A stretch of DNA of 64,000 nt from Ornithobacterium rhinotracheale (GTDB taxonomy: Bacteria > Bacteroidota > Bacteroidia > Flavobacteriales > Weeksellaceae): positions 876,001 to 940,000 of the forward strand of contig NZ_CP035107.1 of the NCBI RefSeq assembly GCF_004088395.1, in the 5' to 3' direction. Position 1 is the stretch's first letter; each line of letters begins with the position of its first letter. Positions 7,389-18,488 of this stretch are shown in pieces. A program made the position numbers and the translations under genes. Under the pieces are notes generated by a model that was not told the origin of the DNA, searched no databases, and saw only the letters and a list, made by a program, of their open reading frames with translations.

Positions 7389-7416
7389 AAAAAACCCGAA
7401 TATTCGGGTTTTTTTG
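7389..7416. terminator. Bidirectional terminator between the permease and ppa
   Basis: Perfect palindrome CCCGAATATTCGGG (7395-7408) flanked by A-run and T-run, so it can end transcription from both converging genes. Confidence 0.85.
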
Positions 7417-7433
7417 CTTTGAAAATCATATGA

Positions 7434-7940
7434 TTAGATTAAATCTTTCATTTTAAATTCTTCTCCGCTGTAGCGATCAAAGCAGTCTTTCAAAATTTGC
7501 TCCGCTTCTTCTTTGGTTCCCCAGCCTTGCACATCTACTTTCTTTTTTTCTAAATCTTTATACACTTGGAAGAAATGTTCTATCTCGCTTTTCATATGCG
7601 GGTTAAGGTCGTCTAGAGTTTCTAGGTTACTCCAAACAGGGTCGCCCACAGGCACACAGATTAATTTTTCGTCTGGGCCTTTCTCATCTTGCATGTGGAA
7701 TACACCAATGGTTTTTACTTCAATTAAACATCCAGGGAAAGTAGGCTCTGTTACCAATACCAAAACATCTAGCGGGTCTTGGTCAAGGGCAAGCGTATTA
7801 GGAACAAATCCATAATCAGCAGGGTAGTGCATGGAGGAGAAAATAGTTCTGTCCAAGCGGATTCTGTTCCATTTTTTGTCTAATTCATATTTGTTTCGGC
7901 TTCCTTTAGGAATCTCGATTAATACATCGAATGTTTTCAT
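7434..7940 (-). CDS. ppa: Inorganic pyrophosphatase
   Basis: 168 residues, family I soluble enzyme that splits diphosphate and drives biosynthetic reactions. Signatures: EIPKGSRNKYE at the N terminus, YPADYGFVPNT, and DQDPLDVLVL with the metal-binding Asp residues. The ATG at 7940 giving MKTFDVLIEIPKG was chosen over an upstream in-frame ATG because it matches the family N terminus. The viral-type mobile element at 8021 sits 80 bp upstream of this start, so the promoter region beyond that point has been replaced. Confidence 0.93.
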   Translation of the reverse strand: MKTFDVLIEIPKGSRNKYELDKKWNRIRLDRTIFSSMHYPADYGFVPNTLALDQDPLDVLVLVTEPTFPGCLIEVKTIGVFHMQDEKGPDEKLICVPVGDPVWSNLETLDDLNPHMKSEIEHFFQVYKDLEKKKVDVQGWGTKEEAEQILKDCFDRYSGEEFKMKDLI

Positions 7941-8020
7941 AGTCTTTATATGATTTAAATAATATCGCAAATTAATCATTATTTGGAAAAGCAACAAAAT
8001 TAAATTCTAAAAATTTAACT

Positions 8021-8045
8021 TCTACATTCAAAACACAAATGCAAC
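8021..8045 (+). repeat. Left terminal inverted repeat of the provirus
   Basis: Contains ACATTCAA (8024-8031) and AAATGCAAC (8037-8045) separated by five bases. The right end, read on the minus strand, has the same two blocks with the same spacing (18 of the inner 22 positions match; the outermost three do not). The IS30 terminus also has ATTCAA with GCAAC at this spacing. Preceded by target duplication ACT. Confidence 0.85.
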
Positions 8046-8072
8046 GCTTAAATAATTTAAATACAAAAGCGT

Positions 8073-8327
8073 ATGCAAAGAGAAGAAATCAGACCCTTTT
8101 TGGTAGTACAGAAGTTTGTGCCTATTCCAGCAAAGTATTTAGAACCAAGACAATACATATATGAGTATGGTATTGTAGTACAGGTATTAAAACAAGAAAA
8201 TAATGTTGAAGTGTTGTTTTCTGGTCGTTCGTGGATATCTTTTGATAATAACCATATGTTATATCATCGTGTGGTTGTAAAGAGAGAAGAAACCGATTTT
8301 ATTGATTTAAAAAAAGAAAGCCGATAG
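8073..8327 (+). CDS. Small protein of unknown function, first gene of provirus
   Basis: 84 residues, mixed alpha/beta look, no membrane segment or signal peptide. Many Val and Tyr residues (QYIYEYGIVVQVL, YHRVVVKREE) suggest a small beta-barrel such as an SH3-like or OB-like fold, but that is a guess. It lies between the left terminal repeat and the hairpin before rep, so an early or regulatory role is possible. I do not recognise the family. Confidence 0.6.
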   Translation: MQREEIRPFLVVQKFVPIPAKYLEPRQYIYEYGIVVQVLKQENNVEVLFSGRSWISFDNNHMLYHRVVVKREETDFIDLKKESR

Positions 8328-8357
8328 GCTTTTGAGTGGGCTCGTCTCAAGTATCGG
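8321..8357 (+). other. Hairpin before rep, candidate replication origin
   Basis: An outer stem CCGATA (8321-8326) with TATCGG (8352-8357) encloses an inner stem TTGAG (8332-8336) with CTCAA (8346-8350) and a nine-base loop TGGGCTCGT. There is no T-run after it, so it is a poor terminator. Its place, directly upstream of an HUH Rep gene and starting inside the last codons of the 84-residue gene, suits the nick site of a rolling-circle origin. Not proven by sequence alone. Confidence 0.5.
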
Positions 8358-8385
8358 TAAAATCTAACGGCAAAAATCCCTGTAA

Positions 8386-9549
8386 ATGCGACAATATCAA
8401 GAGGTTAATAATTATTATTTGTGTGAAAAGGTTCAGCTTAGACCTACTAGTCTATTGCATTATAGTTATGTGATGGATTTACGAAATTACGAAGTAGGCT
8501 ATGCTCCTACCTTGCGTCAAAATCTAAACAAGGAAAAAACAGAATTAGATGAGTTAAACGCACTAGATGATATTTCGGAATTTGGTACAATCACTAAATA
8601 TGCTGAAAAGTACGAGGAGCTATACACACAAAAGCAAGTAGATGTTTATAATCAGAAAGGGCATGTGTTGAAAGATTTGGGTACATTATCAGAAACTCAA
8701 GTAAGAAATATAAAGAAGTATGCGATATTATTTGCTGACGCAACGAAATCAAATAAAGACAAATATTTGTCTTTTGTAACCTTGACCTTGCCCAGTGCGC
8801 AAATACACCATGATAGAGTGTTGCGTAAAATACTGGCTAAATATCTTGATCATTTAAAAAAGGTCTATGGTTTAAAAAATTATCTCTGGAAAGCGGAGAC
8901 GCAGAAGAATGGAAATATTCATTTTCATGTGTTGATTGATACTCAAATTCCTCGCGGGGATATTCAGCGGATATGGAACCAGTATATAAATAAATATGGT
9001 TATGTAGATAGATATTCTGAAAAGATGAACCGTTTAACGGCTAAACAATATCTAGAAAAGTATTCAAAAAATTATAAATCAGAAAAAGACTGCATACTAG
9101 CCTATCAGCGCAACAAAAAAATAGGATGGACAAATCCCCCAAGTACTAAAATTGAAACGCCAAAGAGTAAACGAAATATAGTTGCCTATGTGGTGAAATA
9201 TCTATTAAAGCAAGAGGAGAATAAACGCCCAATAATTGGTGCGGTGTGGGGAGCGAGCAATAAGGTTAAAAAGCTGAATTATTTAAGTTTTGAAGTGAGT
9301 ACCTATATGGAAGAATTAAACCATTTGCGTGAAAAATTGGAGTATGTGCCTACGGCAATACAATATGTTGAATTGTATAAGGGGAAAGTATATCAGATGA
9401 TCCGCAAGGGATACAAGCGATTAAACGAGCATTTAAAAATTTACCAAAAGGCTATAAAAAACCTACTGAATACTGATGTAAATATGAGTTTAGATAAATC
9501 AATGCAATTAATTTATGAAAAACAATACACAGAACTTGCAAATAATTAG
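8386..9549 (+). CDS. HUH-endonuclease rolling-circle replication initiator
   Basis: 387 residues. Nicks one strand at the origin and stays bound to the 5' end to start rolling-circle replication. Three Rep motifs are visible in order: motif 1 FVTLTLPSAQIHHD (about residue 128), motif 2 NIHFHVLID with the metal-binding His-X-His (about 182), and motif 3 YVVKYLLK with the catalytic Tyr and Lys (about 268). This resembles Rep proteins of Bacteroidota ssDNA phages and related plasmids. The C-terminal 100 residues are a Lys-rich helical tail. The 3' end overlaps the next small gene by 35 bases in another frame. Confidence 0.88.
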   Translation: MRQYQEVNNYYLCEKVQLRPTSLLHYSYVMDLRNYEVGYAPTLRQNLNKEKTELDELNALDDISEFGTITKYAEKYEELYTQKQVDVYNQKGHVLKDLGTLSETQVRNIKKYAILFADATKSNKDKYLSFVTLTLPSAQIHHDRVLRKILAKYLDHLKKVYGLKNYLWKAETQKNGNIHFHVLIDTQIPRGDIQRIWNQYINKYGYVDRYSEKMNRLTAKQYLEKYSKNYKSEKDCILAYQRNKKIGWTNPPSTKIETPKSKRNIVAYVVKYLLKQEENKRPIIGAVWGASNKVKKLNYLSFEVSTYMEELNHLREKLEYVPTAIQYVELYKGKVYQMIRKGYKRLNEHLKIYQKAIKNLLNTDVNMSLDKSMQLIYEKQYTELANN

Positions 9550-9676
9550 CGTCAAGGAATTAGCTTGTTATTTAGGCGTGAGTTATTCCACTGCCAAAAT
9601 GATTAGAAAGGATATATTAAAACACTATAAAAAGAAGTATTTAACGCTCAAGCTGGTTAAATTATATTTTGACTGA
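9515..9676 (+). CDS. Small helix-turn-helix (excisionase-like) protein
   Basis: 53 residues starting at ATG 9515, overlapping the end of rep in a different frame. Residues 11-33 read ISVKELACYLGVSYSTAKMI, a helix-turn-helix of the MerR/excisionase (HTH_17) kind, followed by a Lys-rich tail (RKDILKHYKKKY). Such proteins often act as directionality factors or as switches of phage gene expression. It stands directly before the phased A-tract region and a promoter-like sequence, which it might bind. Function is inference from the motif. Confidence 0.65.
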   Translation: MKNNTQNLQIISVKELACYLGVSYSTAKMIRKDILKHYKKKYLTLKLVKLYFD

Positions 9677-9730
9677 AAAGGGTTTAAAATGGACAAAATT
9701 GGCTAAAAAGGGCTGAAAATGGCTTAAATG
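9671..9730 (+). repeat. Phased 10-bp A-tract repeats
   Basis: From 9681 the sequence falls into exact ten-base steps each beginning GG and carrying an A-rich core: GGTTTAAAAT, GGACAAAATT, GGCTAAAAAG, GGCTGAAAAT, GGCTTAAATG, with GACTGAAAAG before them. A-tracts repeated once per helical turn are known to curve DNA. It lies between the HTH gene and the start of the structural-type genes. Confidence 0.8.
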
Positions 9731-9754
9731 GGAAAGGTGTTTTTGCAGGCTCAA

Positions 9755-9762
9755 TATTTTTG
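9755..9762 (+). promoter_or_regulatory. Candidate -7 box for the late/structural genes
   Basis: TATTTTTG matches the Bacteroidota -7 consensus TAnnTTTG, 29 bases before the ATG at 9791. No TTG is found at the usual 22-24 bases upstream; the phased A-tracts end there instead, so an activator or curvature may substitute. Tentative. Confidence 0.4.
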
Positions 9763-9790
9763 TTTTAGAAATTTAAAATAATAGATAAAA

Positions 9791-10447
9791 ATGAAACAGA
9801 GTTTAAGTAAAGCAACCGAGGTACTGGAGATTAGAGAGAGTGCCGCTGGTTTGATTTTTAAGAGTGGCGCTCGTTCTGCTGTTTTTTTGCAGGCGGTGGA
9901 TATTGAGGTTTTTTTAGTGGATGAGACTTTTACGAAGAAGGTGCTTGTTCCGAAGATGAGCGTTAAGCTATTTACAGAATTGTTGGGCGTGCATTTCATC
10001 AAATTGCAAACAACAATTGATAGCGACAAAGTAGCGGTAATTCCTTTTTCTAAATCTGGAAGTTTGCCACTTGATGACAAAACTTACATTGAGTTCCATG
10101 TATCGGGTGGACAAGCACAGAATGTAACTGCAGAAACATTTGAGGCTATTGGAAGTGCAGAGCCTATTTATGTTCAGCAGGTGAAACTTGACCAAAACAT
10201 TAGTGTAAAGGATGTCGATGTATTAGCATTTGATTATTTGGTAGCTGAGAAAACACCAAATGAATTACAAGTTATCAATGCACAGGGCAAAACAAGGATT
10301 TCGCAACTACAACTTGATTATGCAAAAAATGCAAGGATTGATGAGTTATCGAAATTACCTGCATTAGATTTAACAGGCTTGTACACTTTGGCGGTGTATA
10401 AAAATGTTGGTGAAGAATTTACATTCTATTTGTTAGACGCAAAATAA
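9791..10447 (+). CDS. Beta-rich protein, candidate virion/capsid protein
   Basis: 218 residues, no Cys, no signal peptide and no membrane span. The first 130 residues alternate short hydrophobic strands (AAGLIFKSG, AVFLQAVDIEVFLVD, FIKLQTTI, KVAVIPFSKSG) with loops, a pattern fitting a beta-sandwich such as a jelly roll. First gene after the promoter-like region and before membrane-protein genes, the usual place of a main structural protein in small phages. At 218 residues it is short for a double jelly roll (PM2 P2 is about 269). No family is recognised; a capsid role is inference. Confidence 0.5.
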   Translation: MKQSLSKATEVLEIRESAAGLIFKSGARSAVFLQAVDIEVFLVDETFTKKVLVPKMSVKLFTELLGVHFIKLQTTIDSDKVAVIPFSKSGSLPLDDKTYIEFHVSGGQAQNVTAETFEAIGSAEPIYVQQVKLDQNISVKDVDVLAFDYLVAEKTPNELQVINAQGKTRISQLQLDYAKNARIDELSKLPALDLTGLYTLAVYKNVGEEFTFYLLDAK

Positions 10448-10454
10448 TATTGAA

Positions 10455-11222
10455 ATGATAGGAGCAATAACAGCGGTAAGTAGTTTAATTGGAAGTGTGG
10501 GGGGCGGTAACGCCTCCGGCTCCTCTCTTGGTCAATTTGGAGGAAAGATAGTAGGCGGTGTATTAAGTAAGATAACTGGCGGTTTAGATAGTGTACTTGC
10601 AAACGGCTTTGATTTGCATTGTTGGGGCTCGAGCTGGTCGCCTAGTAGAGCGATGAAAGAAGGAACCACAATCGTTGAATGGATTATTGAGCAATCTGGA
10701 TTTACTAAGGTAGCCAGTGCTGACAATTTTAATAAGGCGTTACTTTATTTAAAAGTTTGTGCAAGTGGTTTCCCATGGGGTAAAGATTGTACTAGAAAAG
10801 GTACCGAGGCACTAGCTGCAATGATAACAGAGGCATATGGTAGAATGCTGAAAGAGTATCAGACTAAGTTTGCCTATGTGGGGGATAAAGAGTATCCTGC
10901 GGGGACAGATGTTCATTTAGATTTTCCGTTTAAGGACACTTCAAGAGGTGATGCCGTGAGTAAGGAGGTTTTGCGAGTGCCGTTCTTCAGAGAAAAAACA
11001 GATGCTGAAAGACAAGCAGATAGCCAAGCAGGTTCATCGGATTATAGACCTACTGATGATGAAACACTTAAAACTGGCATGCCTTCAGAAGGTGCACAAC
11101 CAGCAGTGACAGAGGGGAAAGTTTATGGCAAAGCTACTGGACATGTGAGAAGTGGGGATAATACTCTGTTGTATTTATTACTCGGAGGTGTAACGATTTA
11201 TTTATTAACCAAGAAAAAATAA
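10455..11222 (+). CDS. Gly-rich protein with C-terminal membrane anchor, likely structural
   Basis: 255 residues. The N terminus (residues 1-45) is rich in Gly, Ser and hydrophobic residues and lacks a signal-cleavage site; it may be membrane-active. The middle has one Trp/Cys region (LHCWGSSWSPSRAM). Residues 200-232 are polar. Residues about 233-250 (TLLYLLLGGVTIYLL) form one span, ending TKKK, so the bulk would face one side of a membrane with a charged stop. Seven bases after the candidate capsid gene. Possible membrane-associated virion protein; family unknown. Confidence 0.5.
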   Translation: MIGAITAVSSLIGSVGGGNASGSSLGQFGGKIVGGVLSKITGGLDSVLANGFDLHCWGSSWSPSRAMKEGTTIVEWIIEQSGFTKVASADNFNKALLYLKVCASGFPWGKDCTRKGTEALAAMITEAYGRMLKEYQTKFAYVGDKEYPAGTDVHLDFPFKDTSRGDAVSKEVLRVPFFREKTDAERQADSQAGSSDYRPTDDETLKTGMPSEGAQPAVTEGKVYGKATGHVRSGDNTLLYLLLGGVTIYLLTKKK

Positions 11223-11241
11223 TTTTTAAAAACAAAATAAA

Positions 11242-11412
11242 ATGAAACAAGTAATAACAAAAATTGATAGTTTTTTATTGAAACCATTGAGCGGTAATGG
11301 TGCAGGGACAAGTATTGGAACCGTTTTGGTGCTGGCACTAGGTGCGGTTATTGTGTCTGTGTACATGGGCTGGATAAAAGTTAAGAGTTTCGGCAGACGC
11401 CGTGGCTGGTAG
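11242..11412 (+). CDS. Small single-span membrane protein
   Basis: 56 residues from ATG 11242. Layout: short amphipathic start, Gly/Ser segment SGNGAGTSIG, one strong span (about residues 25-44, GTVLVLALGAVIVSVYMG), then a basic tail KVKSFGRRRGW. That size and shape recalls minor membrane or coat proteins of small ssDNA phages. The span followed by Arg/Lys predicts the C terminus on the DNA/cytoplasmic side. Family not recognised. Confidence 0.6.
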   Translation: MKQVITKIDSFLLKPLSGNGAGTSIGTVLVLALGAVIVSVYMGWIKVKSFGRRRGW

Positions 11413-11440
11413 TTGTTTAATTAAAAAAAAAAGTATAGAA

Positions 11441-11857
11441 ATGGCGTATAATAATGGATATAATAACGGTTGGGGTGGAAATCCCAACCCTAATTTTAAC
11501 CGAGGTTATAACCGCGGTTATAATAATCAGAGACAACCTAAAAAACATTCTGGGGCGAGAGCTGGACAGGGCAAGAATGGAAAGTTTTATGTTACCGCTT
11601 GGAATTACTCTAAGCAAAGGGGCATGGTGACTGTAAAGGCATTTGAAAACTCGCGTTCTGTGCGCTCGGAGTCTCAAACAGGGAATAGATTTCTGATGAT
11701 GATGTTTGAGGTGTTTTATAAAAACACAGGAGCAAAGGTATTGGAGCTAGCTAATTATAATGTGAATACAGGAAAGGTGTATTTACAAAAAGTTGGCATG
11801 GTAATTAGTACCAAAGCGCCGAATGGTGGGTATTTTGGACAAATTAAAACTAGATAG
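11441..11857 (+). CDS. Asn/Gly/Tyr-rich small protein, candidate nucleic-acid-binding
   Basis: 138 residues with ATG 11441 giving MAYNNGYNNGWGG. The first 40 residues are low-complexity Asn, Gly, Tyr and Arg, then a basic patch QPKKHSGARAGQGKNGK, then a ~95-residue beta-rich domain (KFYVTAWNYS, GMVTVKAFE, LMMMFEVFY, KVYLQKVGMVIS). The shape would fit a small OB-fold, possibly an ssDNA-binding or genome-packing protein, but this is inference. An upstream in-frame start would add 13 residues without likeness to a real N terminus. Stop codon is two bases before the next ATG. Confidence 0.55.
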   Translation: MAYNNGYNNGWGGNPNPNFNRGYNRGYNNQRQPKKHSGARAGQGKNGKFYVTAWNYSKQRGMVTVKAFENSRSVRSESQTGNRFLMMMFEVFYKNTGAKVLELANYNVNTGKVYLQKVGMVISTKAPNGGYFGQIKTR

Positions 11858-11859
11858 TT

Positions 11860-12048
11860 ATGTTTAAAAATATTAGAAGTTTGATGAAAAGTATTCCGAC
11901 ATTGTTGAAATATGTGCAATGTGCAAAAATTTGCTTGCACCATGCGTATGAGGCAAAAAAAGAGATAGATACGCTTTTTGATGATGTGGAGGGTAATGAA
12001 CCTGAGTATCTTCAGAATGAGGATCCAGATAAGGAGCATTTGTGGTAA
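11860..12048 (+). CDS. Small unknown protein
   Basis: 62 residues starting two bases after the previous stop. The first half is basic and amphipathic (MFKNIRSLMKSIPTLLKYV) with two Cys residues; the second half is strongly acidic (FDDVEGNEPEYLQNEDPD). No signal peptide or clear span. Function unknown; kept because of its tight spacing in the operon. Confidence 0.45.
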   Translation: MFKNIRSLMKSIPTLLKYVQCAKICLHHAYEAKKEIDTLFDDVEGNEPEYLQNEDPDKEHLW

Positions 12049-12062
12049 TTTGATTTGTTGAG

Positions 12063-12161
12063 ATGAGGATGTTAAGTAGTGTTGTAATGGCGGTTATATA
12101 CATTGGAATGATTATGCTTTCTGATGTCTTAAAGGACCAAATAAAAGAAACATTTAAGTAA
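12063..12161 (+). CDS. Very small membrane peptide
   Basis: 32 residues, ATG 12063. A hydrophobic stretch (LSSVVMAVIYIGMIMLS) covers residues 4-20, followed by a charged tail ending FK. Its TAA shares its last base with the next ATG (TAATG), so translation is probably coupled. Holin-like or virion membrane peptide is possible but unproven. Confidence 0.4.
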   Translation: MRMLSSVVMAVIYIGMIMLSDVLKDQIKETFK

Positions 12162-12532
12162 TGAAGTTTTTAAGTGATTTAACAAATGTATTAAAGCTAT
12201 TGGGGGTTGCTCTGGTAGCTTTAATCATATGGATGGCATTTAAGGGTTTTCAGAAAACTGTGCTTTTGGGTAAAGACGGCATACCTGATAAAATTTCGGA
12301 GGCTTTTAGACAAAAGACATCTAAAGAGCAATTTCGTATTTATTTAGATTATTGGGCGGTGCGTGCTAAATGGTTCTTTTTTGGAAGTTATCCAAGCCTA
12401 AGTGATGAGCAGGTAAAGCATTTAAGAAATGAAAACAAGAATTTAGGAAGTTTTGTAGGTCGGTTCTTCCAGGAACAACAGAAATTGTTGGAAAAATACG
12501 ACCTAAAGAAAGAACAAAGATACCAACATTAA
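12161..12532 (+). CDS. Single-span membrane protein with cytoplasmic helical domain
   Basis: 123 residues. One span at about residues 10-29 (VLKLLGVALVALIIWMAF), then about 90 mostly helical, charged residues with a WAVRAKWFFFG patch and a coiled-coil-like end (EQQKLLEKYDLKKEQRYQ). No cleavable signal. Joined to both neighbours by one-base stop/start overlaps (TAATG at 12161 and at 12532). Sitting directly before the endolysin-like gene, it could serve lysis or membrane docking; family unknown. Confidence 0.5.
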   Translation: MKFLSDLTNVLKLLGVALVALIIWMAFKGFQKTVLLGKDGIPDKISEAFRQKTSKEQFRIYLDYWAVRAKWFFFGSYPSLSDEQVKHLRNENKNLGSFVGRFFQEQQKLLEKYDLKKEQRYQH

Positions 12533-13377
12533 TGAGAAAAAATAGAGATAAAAAAATGACATATTTACAAGCAATTGCCCTGCTAGCTGGAAGTTGGTGG
12601 GCTTATAAAATATCAAAACCAAAGTCTAAAGTGGAATTTGGAGAATTGGAACTAGTGGGGGTGGATATTGTAGAGGATTTAGATTTTGAAAGATATAAAG
12701 ATGAGCGTTTTAAAATAAAAGGTTTTGATGCTGGTTCAAATTTATTTATCGAAAAAAAAGTATTTCAAAAGGCTTTGTCATTAGTGAAAAGTGGTAAAAT
12801 GAAAACCAATCACATGGCGGCTATTCTTGCTAATATAATGATAGAATGTCATTATAATGAAGTTTTAGACGAGGAGCCAAGTCGTAAATGGTGGAATGCA
12901 AATTATTCTGGTAATTTGACATATACACCTAGAAATTATTTTGGATATAGATATGGTAATTCTTCTAAATCTAGGAATGGAGGGGCAAAAGGTAAAGAAT
13001 TAGGTAATAAATCTTTTGAAGATGGTTATACATTTAGAGGGCGTGGATTGTGTCAGCTTACTGGTAGGTCTTTGTATGAGAGGTTTTCTAAAGTTAATGG
13101 TGTTGATGCTATTTCTAATCCAGATTTAGCGAGGGATTTTGATATGAATTTTAATTATATGGTGTGTGCTTTCATGCATTGGAAAGGGGCGTTGTTTAAT
13201 GGTTATAATTTAAATAGAGTTATGCCAGGAAATAGTTTAGAGTTTTCTAAGTCTAGAATGATTTTGAATTATGGGGAGTACTTTTCTAAGAAAAATAAAA
13301 ATCATCTTATCAATTCAAATGGAATGGCGTTTTATAAATTGTTAAATAAATTTTTAGAAGATGACAAAGAGAGATAA
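12532..13377 (+). CDS. GH19-type muramidase/chitinase-like endolysin
   Basis: 281 residues. A lysozyme-like enzyme that should cut the glycan strands of peptidoglycan, for phage entry or release. A weakly hydrophobic, basic N terminus (KKMTYLQAIALLAGSWWAYK) may anchor it. The catalytic part has AAILANIMIECHYNE with the likely catalytic Glu, and the GH19 hallmark FRGRGLCQLTGRSLYERFS, then ISNPDLARDF. In FLiP-like phages a lytic transglycosylase-like virion protein plays this role. Translation is coupled to the upstream gene; the next gene begins inside its last 17 bases. Confidence 0.8.
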   Translation: MRKNRDKKMTYLQAIALLAGSWWAYKISKPKSKVEFGELELVGVDIVEDLDFERYKDERFKIKGFDAGSNLFIEKKVFQKALSLVKSGKMKTNHMAAILANIMIECHYNEVLDEEPSRKWWNANYSGNLTYTPRNYFGYRYGNSSKSRNGGAKGKELGNKSFEDGYTFRGRGLCQLTGRSLYERFSKVNGVDAISNPDLARDFDMNFNYMVCAFMHWKGALFNGYNLNRVMPGNSLEFSKSRMILNYGEYFSKKNKNHLINSNGMAFYKLLNKFLEDDKER

Positions 13378-14092
13378 GAAAAGGGTAAAAAAAGGGTTAT
13401 TCATCTTTTTAATAATCTATCTATTATTTAGATTGACCAAGAAGACGAGTATAAAGGAGAAAGTAAGCACAGGAGATAATTCCTTGTTGCCACTGGATAC
13501 AAATAAATTCAAGGAACCTGTGAGCTTGCCCAAAGTAGAAAAACCAAAGTTTGATAAGGTTTTTGCCAAAGGCGGTTCTGCAGTGAGGAATGAAAAGGCA
13601 TTTGCTCACAAGGTGGAAGATATGATGAATGCGGAGCGAAGAAAGGGCAAGATACCTGTAAAGTCTGATGTTGTGAAGCAAGTACAGCGAGAGCAGGCAC
13701 CAGATGTTTCTCCGGCAGAGCCATGTGTGGAGTGTGAGGAAAAGAAAAAGGCTGTGCCTACTCCACCGAAGCCTGTGGAAGTGCCGAAGCCTGTGCCGAT
13801 TGATGTGCCGAAGTCTTGTAATGTTTTGACGCCTGTGCCTGCGGTGTATGATTTTGGGTGTGGGAATGAGACTGGTGCGCTGTTGATTGAGAAGGCGAAT
13901 GTTTTGGTGTATGATTACGGGAGCCACCGCCGAATTATTAACCGAAATGGTGATGTGATACGAATTGATGTTCAGGGGCGTAGTGGTGATGATGCTTTGT
14001 ATTTGAATCATAATGAGTATGTGGATTTGGCGGAGCAGTTTAGGACTTATGATGGTGAGTTTTCTATTAATGAAAGGGGTGTTTTGGTTTAA
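13361..14092 (+). CDS. Membrane-anchored protein with Pro/Val/Lys linker
   Basis: 243 residues. Residues 13-25 (FIFLIIYLLFRL) are a short N-terminal span after a basic start (MTKRDKKRVKKG). Residues 35-120 are polar and helical. A CVECEEKKK segment leads into a rigid linker of repeated Pro-Val/Pro-Lys (about 130-155), followed by a ~75-residue C-terminal domain with tandem short strands and many Asp/Asn/Tyr. The anchor-stalk-tip plan would suit a virion spike or host-contact protein; this is inference. The family is not recognised. Confidence 0.5.
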   Translation: MTKRDKKRVKKGLFIFLIIYLLFRLTKKTSIKEKVSTGDNSLLPLDTNKFKEPVSLPKVEKPKFDKVFAKGGSAVRNEKAFAHKVEDMMNAERRKGKIPVKSDVVKQVQREQAPDVSPAEPCVECEEKKKAVPTPPKPVEVPKPVPIDVPKSCNVLTPVPAVYDFGCGNETGALLIEKANVLVYDYGSHRRIINRNGDVIRIDVQGRSGDDALYLNHNEYVDLAEQFRTYDGEFSINERGVLV

Positions 14093-14108
14093 TTAAAGAG
14101 ATAGAGAG

Positions 14109-14282
14109 ATGACTAATTTTGTAGATAGGAGTAAGATTTATGGTATTTTGGGGTTTACGGGGGCTGTGAGCTTTGAGGAGTTTAAACCGCTTGTGGCGAG
14201 TTTGCTGGCTATATTGCTGGATTTTGGGTATAGTTTTTTGAAAAAGAAAATTAAGGATTTAAGAGATAAAAAAGAGGAATAG
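14109..14282 (+). CDS. Small membrane-associated protein with basic tail
   Basis: 57 residues, ATG 14109. Residues 26-44 (KPLVASLLAILLDFGYSFL) form one hydrophobic segment, followed by a highly charged helix KKKIKDLRDKKEE. Two bases separate it from the next ATG. Short length and shape are like the other small membrane proteins of this element. Function unknown. Confidence 0.5.
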   Translation: MTNFVDRSKIYGILGFTGAVSFEEFKPLVASLLAILLDFGYSFLKKKIKDLRDKKEE

Positions 14283-14284
14283 AG

Positions 14285-14836
14285 ATGTGCCAAAAGTTTT
14301 ATTTGATTGATAATGCTAAGTTCCGCCGTGAGCTTGTTTGTTTACCTGTTTCAATGATTGATTATGATGCTGAGTGCTACTATCAGGAGTTTAATGGTGG
14401 ATTGATGACGCCTGCTGCTTTTAAGAAGTGGATACTTGCGGAGTATGGGGGTGATTTGGAGGCTTATGTTTTCTTTTATCGTTTGTTGCCTCTGGATAGT
14501 GTTGAGATTAAGGATAGGGTGCCTGCTGTGGCAGAGGTTGTGGAGGAGGCTGTGCCTGTGGTTCCTGCTGTGCCTGTGGCGTCTTGGGAGAAGATTAATG
14601 AGTTTTATGGCGGGTTTGAGGTTTGGAAACGCGGTGATGATTATAAGTTTGTGAATAATGTTGAGGGTTTGGCAATTGGTGTTTATAGATATGCTCCGCC
14701 TCAGGAGGTTTATGAGAATGAAGTTTGCTATTTAGGCTATGGTCAGGAATTTGAGTATAGTGGTGAAGTGTCTGATTTGATTGTTTGGGACGGTGTTTCA
14801 GGTACTGAGCCGAGAGATTTGAATTTTGTTGCTTAA
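14285..14836 (+). CDS. Unknown protein with Pro/Val linker
   Basis: 183 residues, acidic, no signal peptide and no span. The first ~75 residues are a compact domain (FRRELVCLPVSMIDYDAE, FKKWILAEYGG). Residues about 80-100 are a Pro/Val/Ala/Glu linker similar in kind to that of the gene two places upstream. The last ~80 residues are a Tyr/Gly-rich beta domain (WKRGDDYKFVNN, YRYAPPQEVYENE). Could be a receptor-binding or assembly protein; no family recognised. Confidence 0.5.
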   Translation: MCQKFYLIDNAKFRRELVCLPVSMIDYDAECYYQEFNGGLMTPAAFKKWILAEYGGDLEAYVFFYRLLPLDSVEIKDRVPAVAEVVEEAVPVVPAVPVASWEKINEFYGGFEVWKRGDDYKFVNNVEGLAIGVYRYAPPQEVYENEVCYLGYGQEFEYSGEVSDLIVWDGVSGTEPRDLNFVA

Positions 14837-14845
14837 CTTTGAGGT

Positions 14846-15055
14846 GTGGGACATAAGAATGATTATAGTTGCATAGTTTTTGGGCGTTTTGGCGTGTTCA
14901 AGATGCAGTATGTGCACGACCTTTATAAGTTTAGCAAGTGGCTGGATGGTTCTAAGTTTCGGGATTGGAAGTATTTTAATGTGTATGACCGCCGAGCTGG
15001 GCAGTACTTGGGGAGGTTTTATAAGGGGAGTTTTGTGCCGAGATTTTTGAATTAA
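14846..15055 (+). CDS. Small unknown protein
   Basis: 69 residues from GTG 14846, or 50 residues from ATG 14903 (MQYVHDLYKF). Basic and aromatic, ending in YDRRAGQYLGRFYKG. The GTG start keeps it nine bases after the previous stop; the ATG start is equally acceptable. It has no membrane segment. Function unknown. Confidence 0.4.
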   Translation: MGHKNDYSCIVFGRFGVFKMQYVHDLYKFSKWLDGSKFRDWKYFNVYDRRAGQYLGRFYKGSFVPRFLN

Positions 15056-15197
15056 TTTGTTTTTTTTCATAGAATATTTTTACTAATGGGGTGATGCGTT
15101 GTGCGCATTGCCCTTTTTTCTTTTTTATCTTTTTGCTTTGCTGAAAATTGGCATTTATTTTGATGTAAGCGTGTATATTAGTAAAATATTTAGATAT

Positions 15198-15521
15198 ATG
15201 AAAAAGATGGTTTTAAGTGTGGCACTTGCGTGCGGTGTGTGCGTGGGCTACGGGCAGAGTAAAGAGGCTAAACGGGAGATTAGAAAGTATTATACTGAAA
15301 AGCAGATTAAATACATTAAAAAAGAGTTAAAAGAATATATAAGTGATTGTGATGATATTTTGCATTTATCTAACTCTTTAGATGAGAAACTTTTTAAGAA
15401 TAAAGGGCATTTGATTGCTTATTTTGATTTTTTTATTAATCCACTTTATGATGATTTTTGTACAAAGGGTGAAGTTTATGGATATGGTTTGAAGATAAGT
15501 AGATTAATAAATGGTGAGTGA
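15198..15521 (+). CDS. Small secreted protein, coupled to the transposase
   Basis: 107 residues with ATG 15198 giving MKKMVLSVALACGVCVGYGQ, a clear signal peptide cut after GQ as in many Bacteroidota exported proteins. The mature ~87 residues are Lys/Glu/Tyr-rich and helical at first. An in-frame start at 15099 would place 33 hydrophobic residues before the signal and is unlikely. Its TGA shares its A with the transposase ATG at 15521. Role unknown. Confidence 0.55.
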   Translation: MKKMVLSVALACGVCVGYGQSKEAKREIRKYYTEKQIKYIKKELKEYISDCDDILHLSNSLDEKLFKNKGHLIAYFDFFINPLYDDFCTKGEVYGYGLKISRLINGE

Positions 15522-16495
15522 TGGCACGGAGATTTAAACATTTAGACTTGCACGATAGAGCGATGATAGAGGCGTATTTAAAGGCTGGTTGGTCTATCTC
15601 TAAAATAGCCCGTGAACTGAAAAGGGATAAATCTACGATAAGCCGTGAAGTGAGGAGGAACCGAACGAAAAAAGGAAAATATAAAGCAAAGACTGCACAG
15701 ACGCTCTATTCTGAAAAGAAAGAGCGTTTTTTGCGTTATAGACGCTTTACAAAAGACATTGAGAAAAGAGTAAAACAATTTTTGTATAAAAGATATTCAC
15801 CGCTCCAAATAGTAGGCTATTGTAAAAGCCTGGGACTGGAAATGGTATCAGTAGAAAGAATTTATCAATATATAAGATTGGATAAGCTGAAAGGGGGTGA
15901 TTTGTGGCGGTATTGTAGGCATTCGCTGAAAAGGAGAAAGGTGCGGGTTTCTAAGGTGGTGGGGAAGATAAGGAATAGGGTGAGTATAGAGGAACGCCCG
16001 CAGGTGGTGAATGATAGGATGGAGTTTGGACACTGGGAGGGTGATTTAATTGAGGGGAAAAATCATAAGGGTTATTTGCTGACGATTACAGAAAGGGTAT
16101 CAAGGTTTTTATTTATTAGATATATACCTAATAAAAGTGCAGATGTTGTGGCAAATGCGATGAATGATGTGTTACTTCCTTATAAAAAGGTAGTGAAATC
16201 AATTACTGTGGATAATGGGCTGGAGTTTGCAAATCATGAGAATGTGGCAAAGAAATTGCAAGCCCAGATTTATTTTACAGACCCATACTCTAGTTGGCAA
16301 AAGGGACAAATTGAGCATATGAACAAACTTATTAGACAGTATGTAAAAAAAGGTTCGGCAATTACAAAAAGTACCGCTAACAAGCTGAAAGCGGTACAAA
16401 AAGAGATAAACGACAGACCGTTTAAAGTGTTAAAGTTTTCTAGACCTCGTGAAGTTTTTTTTAATTTTGTGGAAAATGTTGCATTTAGGGGTTGA
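15521..16495 (+). CDS. IS30-family DDE transposase
   Basis: 324 residues from ATG 15521. Carries out cut-and-join of the element's ends. An N-terminal helix-turn-helix (LKAGWSISKIARELKRDKST, about residues 19-38) binds the ends. Catalytic residues: Asp in FGHWEGDLIEG, Asp in SITVDNGLEF and, 33 residues on, Glu in KGQIEHMNKLIRQY. Length fits the family. The start overlaps the upstream stop (TGATG), so it is translated with viral-type cargo. Its last 18 bases, including the stop, form part of the right terminal repeat. No left end for a short IS is found just upstream. Confidence 0.93.
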   Translation: MARRFKHLDLHDRAMIEAYLKAGWSISKIARELKRDKSTISREVRRNRTKKGKYKAKTAQTLYSEKKERFLRYRRFTKDIEKRVKQFLYKRYSPLQIVGYCKSLGLEMVSVERIYQYIRLDKLKGGDLWRYCRHSLKRRKVRVSKVVGKIRNRVSIEERPQVVNDRMEFGHWEGDLIEGKNHKGYLLTITERVSRFLFIRYIPNKSADVVANAMNDVLLPYKKVVKSITVDNGLEFANHENVAKKLQAQIYFTDPYSSWQKGQIEHMNKLIRQYVKKGSAITKSTANKLKAVQKEINDRPFKVLKFSRPREVFFNFVENVAFRG

Positions 16496-16502
16496 ATGTG
16501 CC
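16478..16502 (-). repeat. Right terminal inverted repeat of the provirus
   Basis: Read on the minus strand: ACATTCAA (16499-16492), five bases, AAATGCAAC (16486-16478), matching the left end. The outer three bases (16500-16502) differ from the left end. Followed directly by ACT (16503-16505), the second copy of the target duplication. Confidence 0.85.
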
Positions 16503-16506
16503 ACTT

Positions 16507-17160
16507 TTATGCATGGTCAAAATAGTTTTTTAATTGAATGCTTACTTTTGGGGCTAATTGCATGACCATGATATGCGTGCCCCCTTTTATGATGTCAGCA
16601 TTTTTTATATTTCTTACGGGGAATACAATATCCCTATCGCCGTGCATGTGATGTAGGTTTTTTACGACTAAATCTTTTGGATCCCAACGAATGATTTGAT
16701 GGATACTCCACTTTAAATAATAAGGATCTCGGTGCGTGAAAAATTCCTTGATTTCAGGCAATCTTCTGTCGTATAACTTTCTAAAAAAAGAATAAGAAAG
16801 AAAACTGTCTGAAGTGAAAAACCGCATCGGAATCAATCGATCGGCGTGCAATTTTCCACCCCAGCGCATCAGCGGAGGAAGTTCTTGGCGATTTTTCACA
16901 GAGGAGATTAAAATCGTTTTCTTAGGCAAAAGAAAGCGGTTCATTTCCTGCACAATGATTCCGCCAAACGATAGCCCCAGCAGGGCAAAATCCTCGCTAG
17001 TATCTATCCCGCGCGCCATTCGCTGAGCATAGTGCGCTAAGCTCTCCCCTCTCTGAGGGGAGAGCCATTCAATGAAAACGGGCTCTATCTCATCGGGGAA
17101 TTTTAAAAATTTAAACGCCTTTTGGTTGGCACCGAGCCCGCTGATGCAGTAGAGTTTCAT
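16507..17160 (-). CDS. Alpha/beta-hydrolase
   Basis: 217 residues. Short alpha/beta-hydrolase with the nucleophile elbow GLSFGG (Ser near residue 62), the acid region HGDRDIVFP and the catalytic His in GGTHIMV. Starts MKLYCISGLGANQ with an oxyanion GLG. Substrate unknown. Its ATG overlaps the mtaB stop by four bases (the hydrolase is downstream). The provirus sits immediately beyond its stop codon: the target duplication is one base away, so the gene is intact but has lost its original 3' flank. Confidence 0.8.
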   Translation of the reverse strand: MKLYCISGLGANQKAFKFLKFPDEIEPVFIEWLSPQRGESLAHYAQRMARGIDTSEDFALLGLSFGGIIVQEMNRFLLPKKTILISSVKNRQELPPLMRWGGKLHADRLIPMRFFTSDSFLSYSFFRKLYDRRLPEIKEFFTHRDPYYLKWSIHQIIRWDPKDLVVKNLHHMHGDRDIVFPVRNIKNADIIKGGTHIMVMQLAPKVSIQLKNYFDHA

Positions 17161-18488
17161 AAAATTTGCACTTCCACAATGCCATCTGGATTAAGCATAA
17201 CTAAATCCACCTCGGTGCATTGATTGATTAAATCTGGATTGTATGGCGTTTGTACTTTGATGTAATTCTCGGTATAGCCGAACATCATTCCGTTTTTGTT
17301 TTCCGCTTCCCACACTACTTTTCGGCGTGTCCCTAATTGAGATTGGTAAAATGCAACACGCTTTTTCTCAGAAAGAATTCTAAGCATTTTGTTGCGTTTT
17401 TTTCTTTCGTTAATCGGTACTACGCCTTCAAAATCAACGGCTTCTGTATTGTCTCGCTCCGAATAAGTAAAGACATGCAAGTAGCTGATTGGTAGTTGAT
17501 TCAAGAAATTATAAGTTTCAAGGAAATGCGCTTCGGTCTCCCCTGGGAAGCCCACAATCACATCTACCCCGATGCAACAATGCGGCATAATTTCTTTTAT
17601 TTTTGCCACGCGCTCTTGGTAAAGCCCTGTCAAGTAGCGGCGTTTCATTTTCTTTAAAATCTCGTCGCTACCCGATTGCAATGGAATATGAAAATGCGGC
17701 ACAAATCGTTGGCTCGTTGCCGTGTACTCGATTAATTCATTTTTTAATAAATTCGGCTCGATAGATGAAATTCTGATGCGGTGCACATCGGTCTCTTGGT
17801 CAAGTCGTTCCACGAGTTCCAAAAAGGTATGATCGTGTTTTTTGTTGCCAAATTCGCCTTTTCCATAATCGCCGATGTTTACTCCCGTGAGCACAATTTC
17901 TTCAATCCCTTTTTCGGCAATTTCTTGTGCATTTTTTAGTACATTTTCCACGCTGTCACTTCGCGAAATTCCACGCGCCAGCGGAATGGTGCAGTAAGTA
18001 CATTTGTAGTCGCACCCGTCTTGCACTTTTAAGAAAGCACGCGTTCTGTCTCCAATGGAGTAGGCACTTTCGTAAAAATCAGCTTCTTCGATTTCGCAAG
18101 AGTGAATTTGCGTGTTTTCCTTATTTAAGCTATCTAAAAAATGTACAATATTAAATTTTTCTTTCGCTCCCAAAACCAAATCTACGCCTTCCATTGCTGC
18201 GATTTCTTCTGGTTTTAATTGAGCATAACATCCCACCACAATCACAAAACCTTGCGGATTGGCTTTTTGTGCCATTTTCACCACGCGTTTGCAATCTTTG
18301 TCCGCATTTTGCGTTACCGAGCAGGTGTTGATTACATACACATCGGCAGGCTGGTCAAACTCCACTGGCTCATAGCCCCCCTGTTTCAGTGAGCGGGCGA
18401 TGGTTGAGGTCTCCGAGAAATTAAGTTTACAGCCTAAGGTATAAAAGGCCGCCTTTTTATGTAGATGATTATTTTGTGTCTCGTTCAT
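17157..18488 (-). CDS. mtaB: tRNA methylthiotransferase MtaB (radical SAM)
   Basis: 443 residues. Adds a methylthio group to t6A37 of tRNA. Visible: N-terminal domain with FYTLGCKLNFSE and two more Cys (INTCSV, VGCYAQ) for one Fe-S cluster, the radical SAM motif CDYKCTYC, HIPLQSGSDEILKKM, and a C-terminal TRAM region. The ATG at 18488 (MNETQNN) is preferred; an upstream in-frame ATG adds 23 residues unlike the family. Operon with the downstream hydrolase. Confidence 0.92.
   Translation of the reverse strand: MNETQNNHLHKKAAFYTLGCKLNFSETSTIARSLKQGGYEPVEFDQPADVYVINTCSVTQNADKDCKRVVKMAQKANPQGFVIVVGCYAQLKPEEIAAMEGVDLVLGAKEKFNIVHFLDSLNKENTQIHSCEIEEADFYESAYSIGDRTRAFLKVQDGCDYKCTYCTIPLARGISRSDSVENVLKNAQEIAEKGIEEIVLTGVNIGDYGKGEFGNKKHDHTFLELVERLDQETDVHRIRISSIEPNLLKNELIEYTATSQRFVPHFHIPLQSGSDEILKKMKRRYLTGLYQERVAKIKEIMPHCCIGVDVIVGFPGETEAHFLETYNFLNQLPISYLHVFTYSERDNTEAVDFEGVVPINERKKRNKMLRILSEKKRVAFYQSQLGTRRKVVWEAENKNGMMFGYTENYIKVQTPYNPDLINQCTEVDLVMLNPDGIVEVQIL

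Follow-up and report, generated by a model that had tools for sequence, protein, structure and literature searches.

The window analysed here is a stretch of 64,000 nucleotides (nt) from Ornithobacterium rhinotracheale (contig NZ_CP035107.1, positions 876,001 to 940,000), and at 8021-16502 it holds a virus-like element of 8,482 bp with the ends of an IS30 transposon. The left end, TCTACATTCAAAACACAAATGCAAC, has its first base at 8021 and the right end, whose reverse complement is GGCACATTCAACCCCTAAATGCAAC, has its last base at 16502. The terminal inverted repeats of the element are imperfect (22 nt, 82%), the left IS30-type region covering 8021-8049 on the forward strand and the right repeat covering 16478-16502 on the reverse strand. 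Outside them lie two copies of the trinucleotide ACT, at 8018-8020 and 16503-16505, and the target duplication of IS30 elements is 2-3 bp. An earlier note on this DNA had described the block as bounded by IS30-type inverted repeats and an ACT duplication, and both are present; its coordinates, 8018..16505, picked out the right block but included the duplication, which is not part of the element proper. The GC skew in 1-kb windows was +0.16 to +0.52 within the element versus -0.10 to +0.11 outside it, and such a strand skew would be expected for a genome that is packaged as one strand. An Rfam search of 7400-17400 and a tRNA scan of the whole window were both empty.

The gene set is a choice of 16 open reading frames (ORFs), all on the forward strand, from a block in which overlapping ORFs on both strands were also listed. 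At the right end is the IS30-family transposase of 325 amino acids (aa) that the earlier note had placed there (15518-16495); it scored 280 bits against NF033563 of NCBIfam, for which the cut-off is 80, and matched PF00665 (rve) and PF13936 (HTH_38). By the DDE motif of the family, D176, D232, and E266 are its candidate catalytic residues. No tyrosine or serine integrase was matched among the 16 ORFs scanned, as had been claimed, nor was a packaging ATPase family or a Zot-type morphogenesis ATPase. The HUH rolling-circle Rep of 387 aa (8386-9549) was also identified correctly: it matched Pfam REP_ORF2-G2P (PF23343) with 46.8 bits where the cut-off is 27.8, and phrog_3419, and its motifs, HxH at residues 179 and 181 and YxxK at 268-271, are invariant in the nine sequences of alignment A6. 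It is followed by the genes for a predicted major capsid protein of 218 aa (9791-10447), a predicted virion protein of 255 aa (10455-11222) that has an N-terminal G-rich motif in common with Omtje ORF10, and a predicted virion structural protein of 138 aa (11441-11857) that matched phrog_20522 (E 1.5e-8) and an Omtje structural protein (34%). The 281-aa product of 12532-13377 had been called a GH19 endolysin-like enzyme; it is endolysin-like (GH19/lysozyme-like; phrog_181, E 1e-14), but the GH19 part of the name is weak because its score against PF00182, 18.7 bits, is under the cut-off of 25.5.

The remaining genes are as follows. The first, for an 84-aa protein without an assigned function (8073-8327), had no family above cut-off and is present in all 18 copies of the element described below at 83-100% identity. 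A 53-aa protein (9515-9676) had weak helix-turn-helix matches that lie under the curated cut-offs. Proteins of 56 aa (11242-11412) and 123 aa (12161-12532) are predicted by eye to be membrane proteins, and one of 57 aa (14109-14282) is a predicted membrane protein that is holin-like by size and position only. Between these lie genes for proteins of 62 aa (11860-12048) and 243 aa (13361-14092), the latter varying among copies, and further downstream are those for a highly variable 183-aa protein (14285-14836; 32% to 98% identity to the window's across copies), a conserved 69-aa protein (14846-15055), and a variable 107-aa protein (15198-15521) for which one copy had no match. PADLOC, run on five proteins without an assigned function, was empty. 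Among six relatives from other genera, counterparts were found by blastp for the 69-aa protein in all six (34-51% identical), for the 138-aa protein in five, for the 255-aa and 56-aa proteins in two each, and for the 57-aa protein in one; a small ORF similar to the helix-turn-helix gene is in two.

The type of virus was indicated mainly by the structural proteins. The capsid protein of one relative (P0005), modelled on an alignment of 28 sequences, is a predicted double jelly roll for which the closest solved capsid fold is that of phiCjT23. The window's 218-aa protein, whose gene has the same position, is a homologue of this protein: searches of 865 sequences with hidden Markov models (HMMs) gave the capsid link E values of 5e-6 and 1e-6 (for the window's protein E 5.4e-6, the next best being 0.11), and a wider profile comparison gave E 2e-5 with a probability of 77 in local mode and 8.6 in global mode. 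Its only named database match is an O. rhinotracheale protein, 77% identical. The capsid HMM searches gave no significant match to Omtje ORF9, the likely capsid protein of that phage, and predicted viral structures searched with the capsid model gave only weak matches, many of them unnamed or unrelated. Matches to Omtje were found for the 255-aa and 138-aa proteins, and ORF10 of Omtje in turn matches FLiP gp9; for Rep, capsid, and endolysin, pairwise blastp against Omtje and FLiP gave nothing significant. A rolling-circle Rep without a packaging ATPase, a trait of the FLiP/phiCjT23 type, is present in the element; viruses of that type have an icosahedral virion that contains lipid and ssDNA (single-stranded DNA). 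The modelled fold and these matches indicate that the element is very likely an ssDNA phage related to FLiP, phiCjT23, and Omtje, whose capsid protein is predicted to be a double jelly roll. The proposal that its gene set is that of a small ssDNA virus is thus supported, and the type is refined.

The element was also found outside the window. The window's own genome (G000) has six copies, and of three congeners G001 has eleven, G002 one, and G003, which is a draft, none. Rep, capsid, and transposase genes are in every one of the 18 copies, the copies themselves all start and stop at equal positions, and positions 4-29 of the left end (8024-8049 in the window) do not differ among them. The proposal that the whole block moves as one IS30 unit is supported because cargo and transposase lie between the same ends in 18 of 18 copies. 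The flanking 3 bp are identical in ten of the copies, against a mean of 2.3 when right flanks were shuffled (P 2e-5). Since the flanks are AT-rich (78% over 80 bp), single AAA/TTT matches carry little weight and uninterrupted sites are the stronger evidence. When the flanks of the window's copy are joined they are contiguous in G001 and G002, and the site is uninterrupted in the congeners (97% in G001, 99% in G002, and 69% in G003), so that the empty site which had been suggested as a check exists by sequence comparison. Joined flanks were contiguous in at least one of the three congeners for five of the six copies in G000. The arrangement is not due to chance, given that the same ends recur 18 times across three genomes and that two congeners have an uninterrupted sequence at the window's site. 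The outermost 3 nt of the ends (window 8021-8023 and 16500-16502) differ among the 18 copies, being TCT, CCT, or GGC at the left and GCC or AGC at the right, and the left variant GGC is the reverse complement of the right variant GCC. Apart from the 18 copies, the four genomes have a single transposase match, a 41-residue fragment in G001, where a lone right end (L133, 6223-6378), a relic of 157 nt, accompanies this remnant. Near C1:513973 in G000 there is a left end on its own, 40 nt long and of the GGC type (L167, 4971-5010), for which the 14 kb fetched gave no right end or cargo match.

In seven of the G001 copies the two 3-bp flanks are unequal, but across copies these flanks pair perfectly, forming a three-member and a four-member cycle, a result obtained in none of 20,000 random draws. 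Six of the cross-pairs were tested, and five were contiguous in G000 or G002 at 79-99%, while the left flank of L037 with the right flank of L038 matched in the right half only; the seventh is the site of L010, and its joined form is contiguous in G002. Since the exchanged flanks join contiguously in congeners, recombination between copies appears to have shifted or inverted parts of the G001 chromosome. Five pairs of G001 copies are 99.5-99.95% identical over their full length, pointing to recent spread or gene conversion. Four genes, for the endolysin-like, 243-aa, 183-aa, and 107-aa proteins, are mosaic among copies. The window's endolysin-like protein is 93% identical to that of two of the 11 G001 copies and of the G002 copy, yet 42-45% identical to that of four of the five other copies in its own genome, and alleles common to different species would fit spread between cells. 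The ratio of nonsynonymous to synonymous substitution rates (dN/dS), in four pairs each, was 0.06-0.10 (Rep), 0.11-0.22 (capsid gene), 0.04-0.14 (138-aa gene), and 0.12-0.14 (transposase). Comparison of the 255-aa gene with that of G002 gave 0.33, and the endolysin-like gene, which has widely divergent alleles, gave 0.11-1.10.

Outside Ornithobacterium, nine genomes had a Rep match, of which six were studied in detail and three (G313, G073, and G006) by blastp only. Five of the six relatives are flanked by direct repeats, and one repeat of each is CCTATAATTTATATTATGTTAAAT at 24 of 24, which agrees in location and type with the dif sites reported for phiCjT23-like prophages; the window's transposase had no match in the genomes of these five dif-flanked relatives at E 0.001. 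The sixth, in G202, has IS30 ends of the same form with the duplication ATT and no dif repeat, and the sole transposase match of that genome is inside the element. Transposase matches were found in three of the nine genomes, within the element in G202 and elsewhere in G006 and G313. In the window and at the 17 further Ornithobacterium loci, no dif-like 24-mer did better than shuffled DNA. Well-supported branches separate the Ornithobacterium transposases from that of G202 in a tree of 16 such enzymes, so that at least two changes of the integration module would be needed, although long branches and one ambiguous neighbour (G311, at a contig end) weaken the tree and this count. IS30 transposases of other Weeksellaceae genera are 38-56% identical to the window's, and in G260 there is an IS30 of about 1.1 kb with the transposase alone and, as in the window's element, ends of the form TTCAA-n8-TGCAA. 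Since the cargo occurs without transposase or IS30 ends in relatives and an IS30 occurs alone in G260, the virus and the IS30 module are separable parts that were joined. Either pattern had been held by the earlier note to speak against a single unit; both exist, but in other genera; in Ornithobacterium the parts are joined in 18 of 18 copies and none has its ends around the transposase only.

In a sample of 395 genomes of the order, three had a Rep match at E 1e-12 and one of these was new (G384); it has relatives of Rep and of the 138-aa protein, and no IS30 match in the stretch fetched. The IS30 transposase at L113 in G203 has 94% identity to the one in the G202 element, and ahead of it are two genes whose products resemble those of two G202 element genes (25-27%); it was rejected as a further element of this kind, since despite the G202 transposase lineage no Rep or capsid match was found in the 14 kb upstream. 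G313 has two Rep-like genes (L070, 3912-4826 and 9136-10050) about 5.2 kb apart, a possible tandem element, and its genome has many broken IS30 pieces. In G006 a whole contig of 7,750 nt (L072), perhaps another member of the group, has a Rep-like gene along with counterparts of Omtje ORF10/FLiP gp9, of the 138-aa protein, and of Omtje ORF12. The proviruses at L085, L086, and L087, from three genera, have the same host genes as neighbours (DoxX-like and Era-like, by eye), which would be expected were the position of dif conserved.

An IS30 transposase in an ssDNA phage genome is known from Spiroplasma plectroviruses, as the earlier note had stated, and other filamentous phages, R8A2B and bajarodino virus 74 being the examples found, and from a circular inovirus record of 10,183 nt from rodent faeces (L049, PQ006121). 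These differ from the element in belonging to filamentous-phage families, and their transposases (R8A2B and bajarodino virus 74) are 27-28% identical to the window's. A Zot-type morphogenesis ATPase is a trait of the Inoviridae and Plectroviridae, and we rejected a filamentous phage because the element has no Zot-type match and Rep matched four 'Inoviridae sp.' records at 28-29% over a quarter of its length. L049, seven viral contigs with the end motif, and five small faecal phage records with IS30 transposases (L050 and L141-L144) were likewise set aside, as none has a capsid or Rep relative. The G260 IS30 has a related transposase and similar ends, and the element shares with IS30 the family transposase, terminal inverted repeats, and 3-bp duplication; what sets it apart from an IS30 with a transposase gene only is the 7.1 kb of virus-type genes before the transposase in 18 of 18 copies. 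Like the element, phiCjT23, which has a small circular ssDNA genome, carries Rep followed by a minimal double-jelly-roll capsid gene, and a published account places phiCjT23-like Flavobacterium prophages of 6.0-8.4 kb at dif sites, with inferred use of XerC/XerD (PMC9719478). Flanking dif sites were looked for at the window's element and were not found; it is instead bounded by IS30 ends, encodes a transposase, and occurs in many copies at many sites. In FLiP (Finnlakeviridae) and Omtje/phi18:4 (Obscuriviridae), as in the element, the capsid gene is followed by that for a G-rich structural protein and then by small structural genes and a lytic enzyme, but a shared core including Rep was not found and the matches to Omtje are limited to two structural proteins. 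According to a published statement FLiP does not integrate (PMC13269007). In published descriptions the Omtje virion is icosahedral with ssDNA, the Obscuriviridae are a family without a realm with a capsid modelled as FLiP-like, and prophages of the FLiP group have already been proposed in Bacteroidota.

The ends, the 3-bp duplications, the uninterrupted sites, the 18 copies with cargo and transposase, and the relatives with dif and without an IS30 match make it probable, in our judgement, that this is a provirus-like element, very likely an ssDNA phage from the kinship of phiCjT23, FLiP, and Omtje, and that its insertion is likely by IS30 transposition and not by the Xer/dif route, with recombinases of the host, that its relatives appear to use. 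Several observations weigh against this. The sixth G000 copy, L013, lacks matching 3-bp flanks, its transposase is broken, and eight or more places in G001 match its right flank; for these reasons its site was probably rearranged. The six G000 copies are 89-97% alike in alignable parts and therefore none is a fresh duplicate of another. Damaged genes were found: the transposase in L013 and L036, a stop in the capsid gene in L031 and L033, and a split Rep in L040. As to the capsid, the profile comparison of A1 against A4 was weak (E 0.008, probability 4.9), the window's own model (four sequences) had a pLDDT of 29 so that the fold model is that of a relative, and the 28 relatives' sequences were gathered by a profile containing the window's own protein. 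The Rep, 138-aa, and 255-aa proteins had no close match in 50,697 phage records, the element's DNA had none in 72,556 plasmids, IMG/VR had no match to the Rep peptides, the left end, or the relatives' capsid patterns, and short DNA matches outside the elements in G000, G002, and G003 were all weak, the one of 40 nt being the lone left end at L167. Finally, the movement and virions of the element are deduced from sequence.

If the element were a former virus that is now only an intracellular IS30 transposon, with capsid genes that no longer form particles, then the up to 11 copies per chromosome, the few damaged genes, and the lack of a viral-contig match by the three patterns tried would be explained. 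We consider this unlikely, as the Rep, capsid, and 138-aa genes have dN/dS of 0.04-0.22 and are unbroken in most copies, and endolysin-like alleles that are common to species yet different within one genome suggest traffic between cells. The exchanged flanks of seven G001 copies and the mosaic genes could also mean that the element spread mainly by homologous recombination or gene conversion among old insertions, its transposase being a relic. Recombination, however, does not make new sites with 3-bp duplications, five of six G000 sites are uninterrupted in at least one congener, and the transposase is unbroken in 16 of 18 copies with low dN/dS in four pairs; this explanation is highly improbable. 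The relatives at dif and the G260 IS30, with similar ends around its own gene alone, recall an ordinary dif-type prophage that received a chance IS30 insertion and whose outer ends merely resemble IS30 ends. We give this almost no credence because the inverted repeats enclose the whole 8.5 kb in all 18 copies, with 3-bp duplications outside them in ten, the copies are at many sites, and none of the 18 loci has a dif-like 24-mer better than shuffled DNA.

For an IS30-borne provirus of this type, the following course can be envisaged. IS30 elements transpose via a circle of joined ends, and in the same way the transposase would join the two inverted repeats into a circle that doubles as the replicative form; rolling-circle replication by Rep would then yield the single-stranded genomes to be packaged. 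When the circle enters a cell, or within the cell, the transposase would cut it where the inverted repeats meet and integrate it, duplicating 3 bp, at AT-rich sites that are mostly intergenic. Copies would recombine with each other and likely with incoming viruses, exchanging lysis and late genes and rearranging the chromosome. The element thus probably spreads in two ways, as a virus and by transposition, and judged from its genes and ends it is best described as a FLiP/phiCjT23-related phage with a captured IS30 module.

Polintons are double-jelly-roll viruses of double-stranded DNA (dsDNA) with a transposon-type integrase. We lean, with some reserve, towards seeing the element as their bacterial counterpart, a double-jelly-roll ssDNA virus that as a provirus lives like a replicating transposon, having terminal repeats and a DDE enzyme of the rve fold; host Xer/dif integration would have been swapped for a captured IS30 module at least twice, freeing the virus from a single site, allowing 11 copies per genome, and causing large rearrangements. 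Toil-type proviruses are also double-jelly-roll and have Cas1 (PMC5894146). Polintons and Toil-type proviruses differ from the element in being dsDNA with other integrases and other hosts, and the likeness is one of description. The earlier note had suggested a new mode of lysogeny for this virus type; lysogeny itself is known from the phiCjT23-like prophages at dif (PMC9719478), but IS30 in place of Xer/dif looks new, and we found no description of IS30 in a double-jelly-roll virus, or of the element itself, in the open-access literature searched. The element joins two things known apart, minimal double-jelly-roll ssDNA phages, which one proposal treats as a model of the ancestor of Bamfordvirae viruses, both ssDNA and dsDNA (PMC9719478), and IS30 transposons. 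Because close relatives are split into dif-bound and IS30-bound forms, exchange of the integration module is directly testable. The finding also bears on genome rearrangement in Ornithobacterium, where inversions bordered by transposases are reported in published O. rhinotracheale genomes (PMC4334632) and where copies of this element account for the exchanged flanks in G001.

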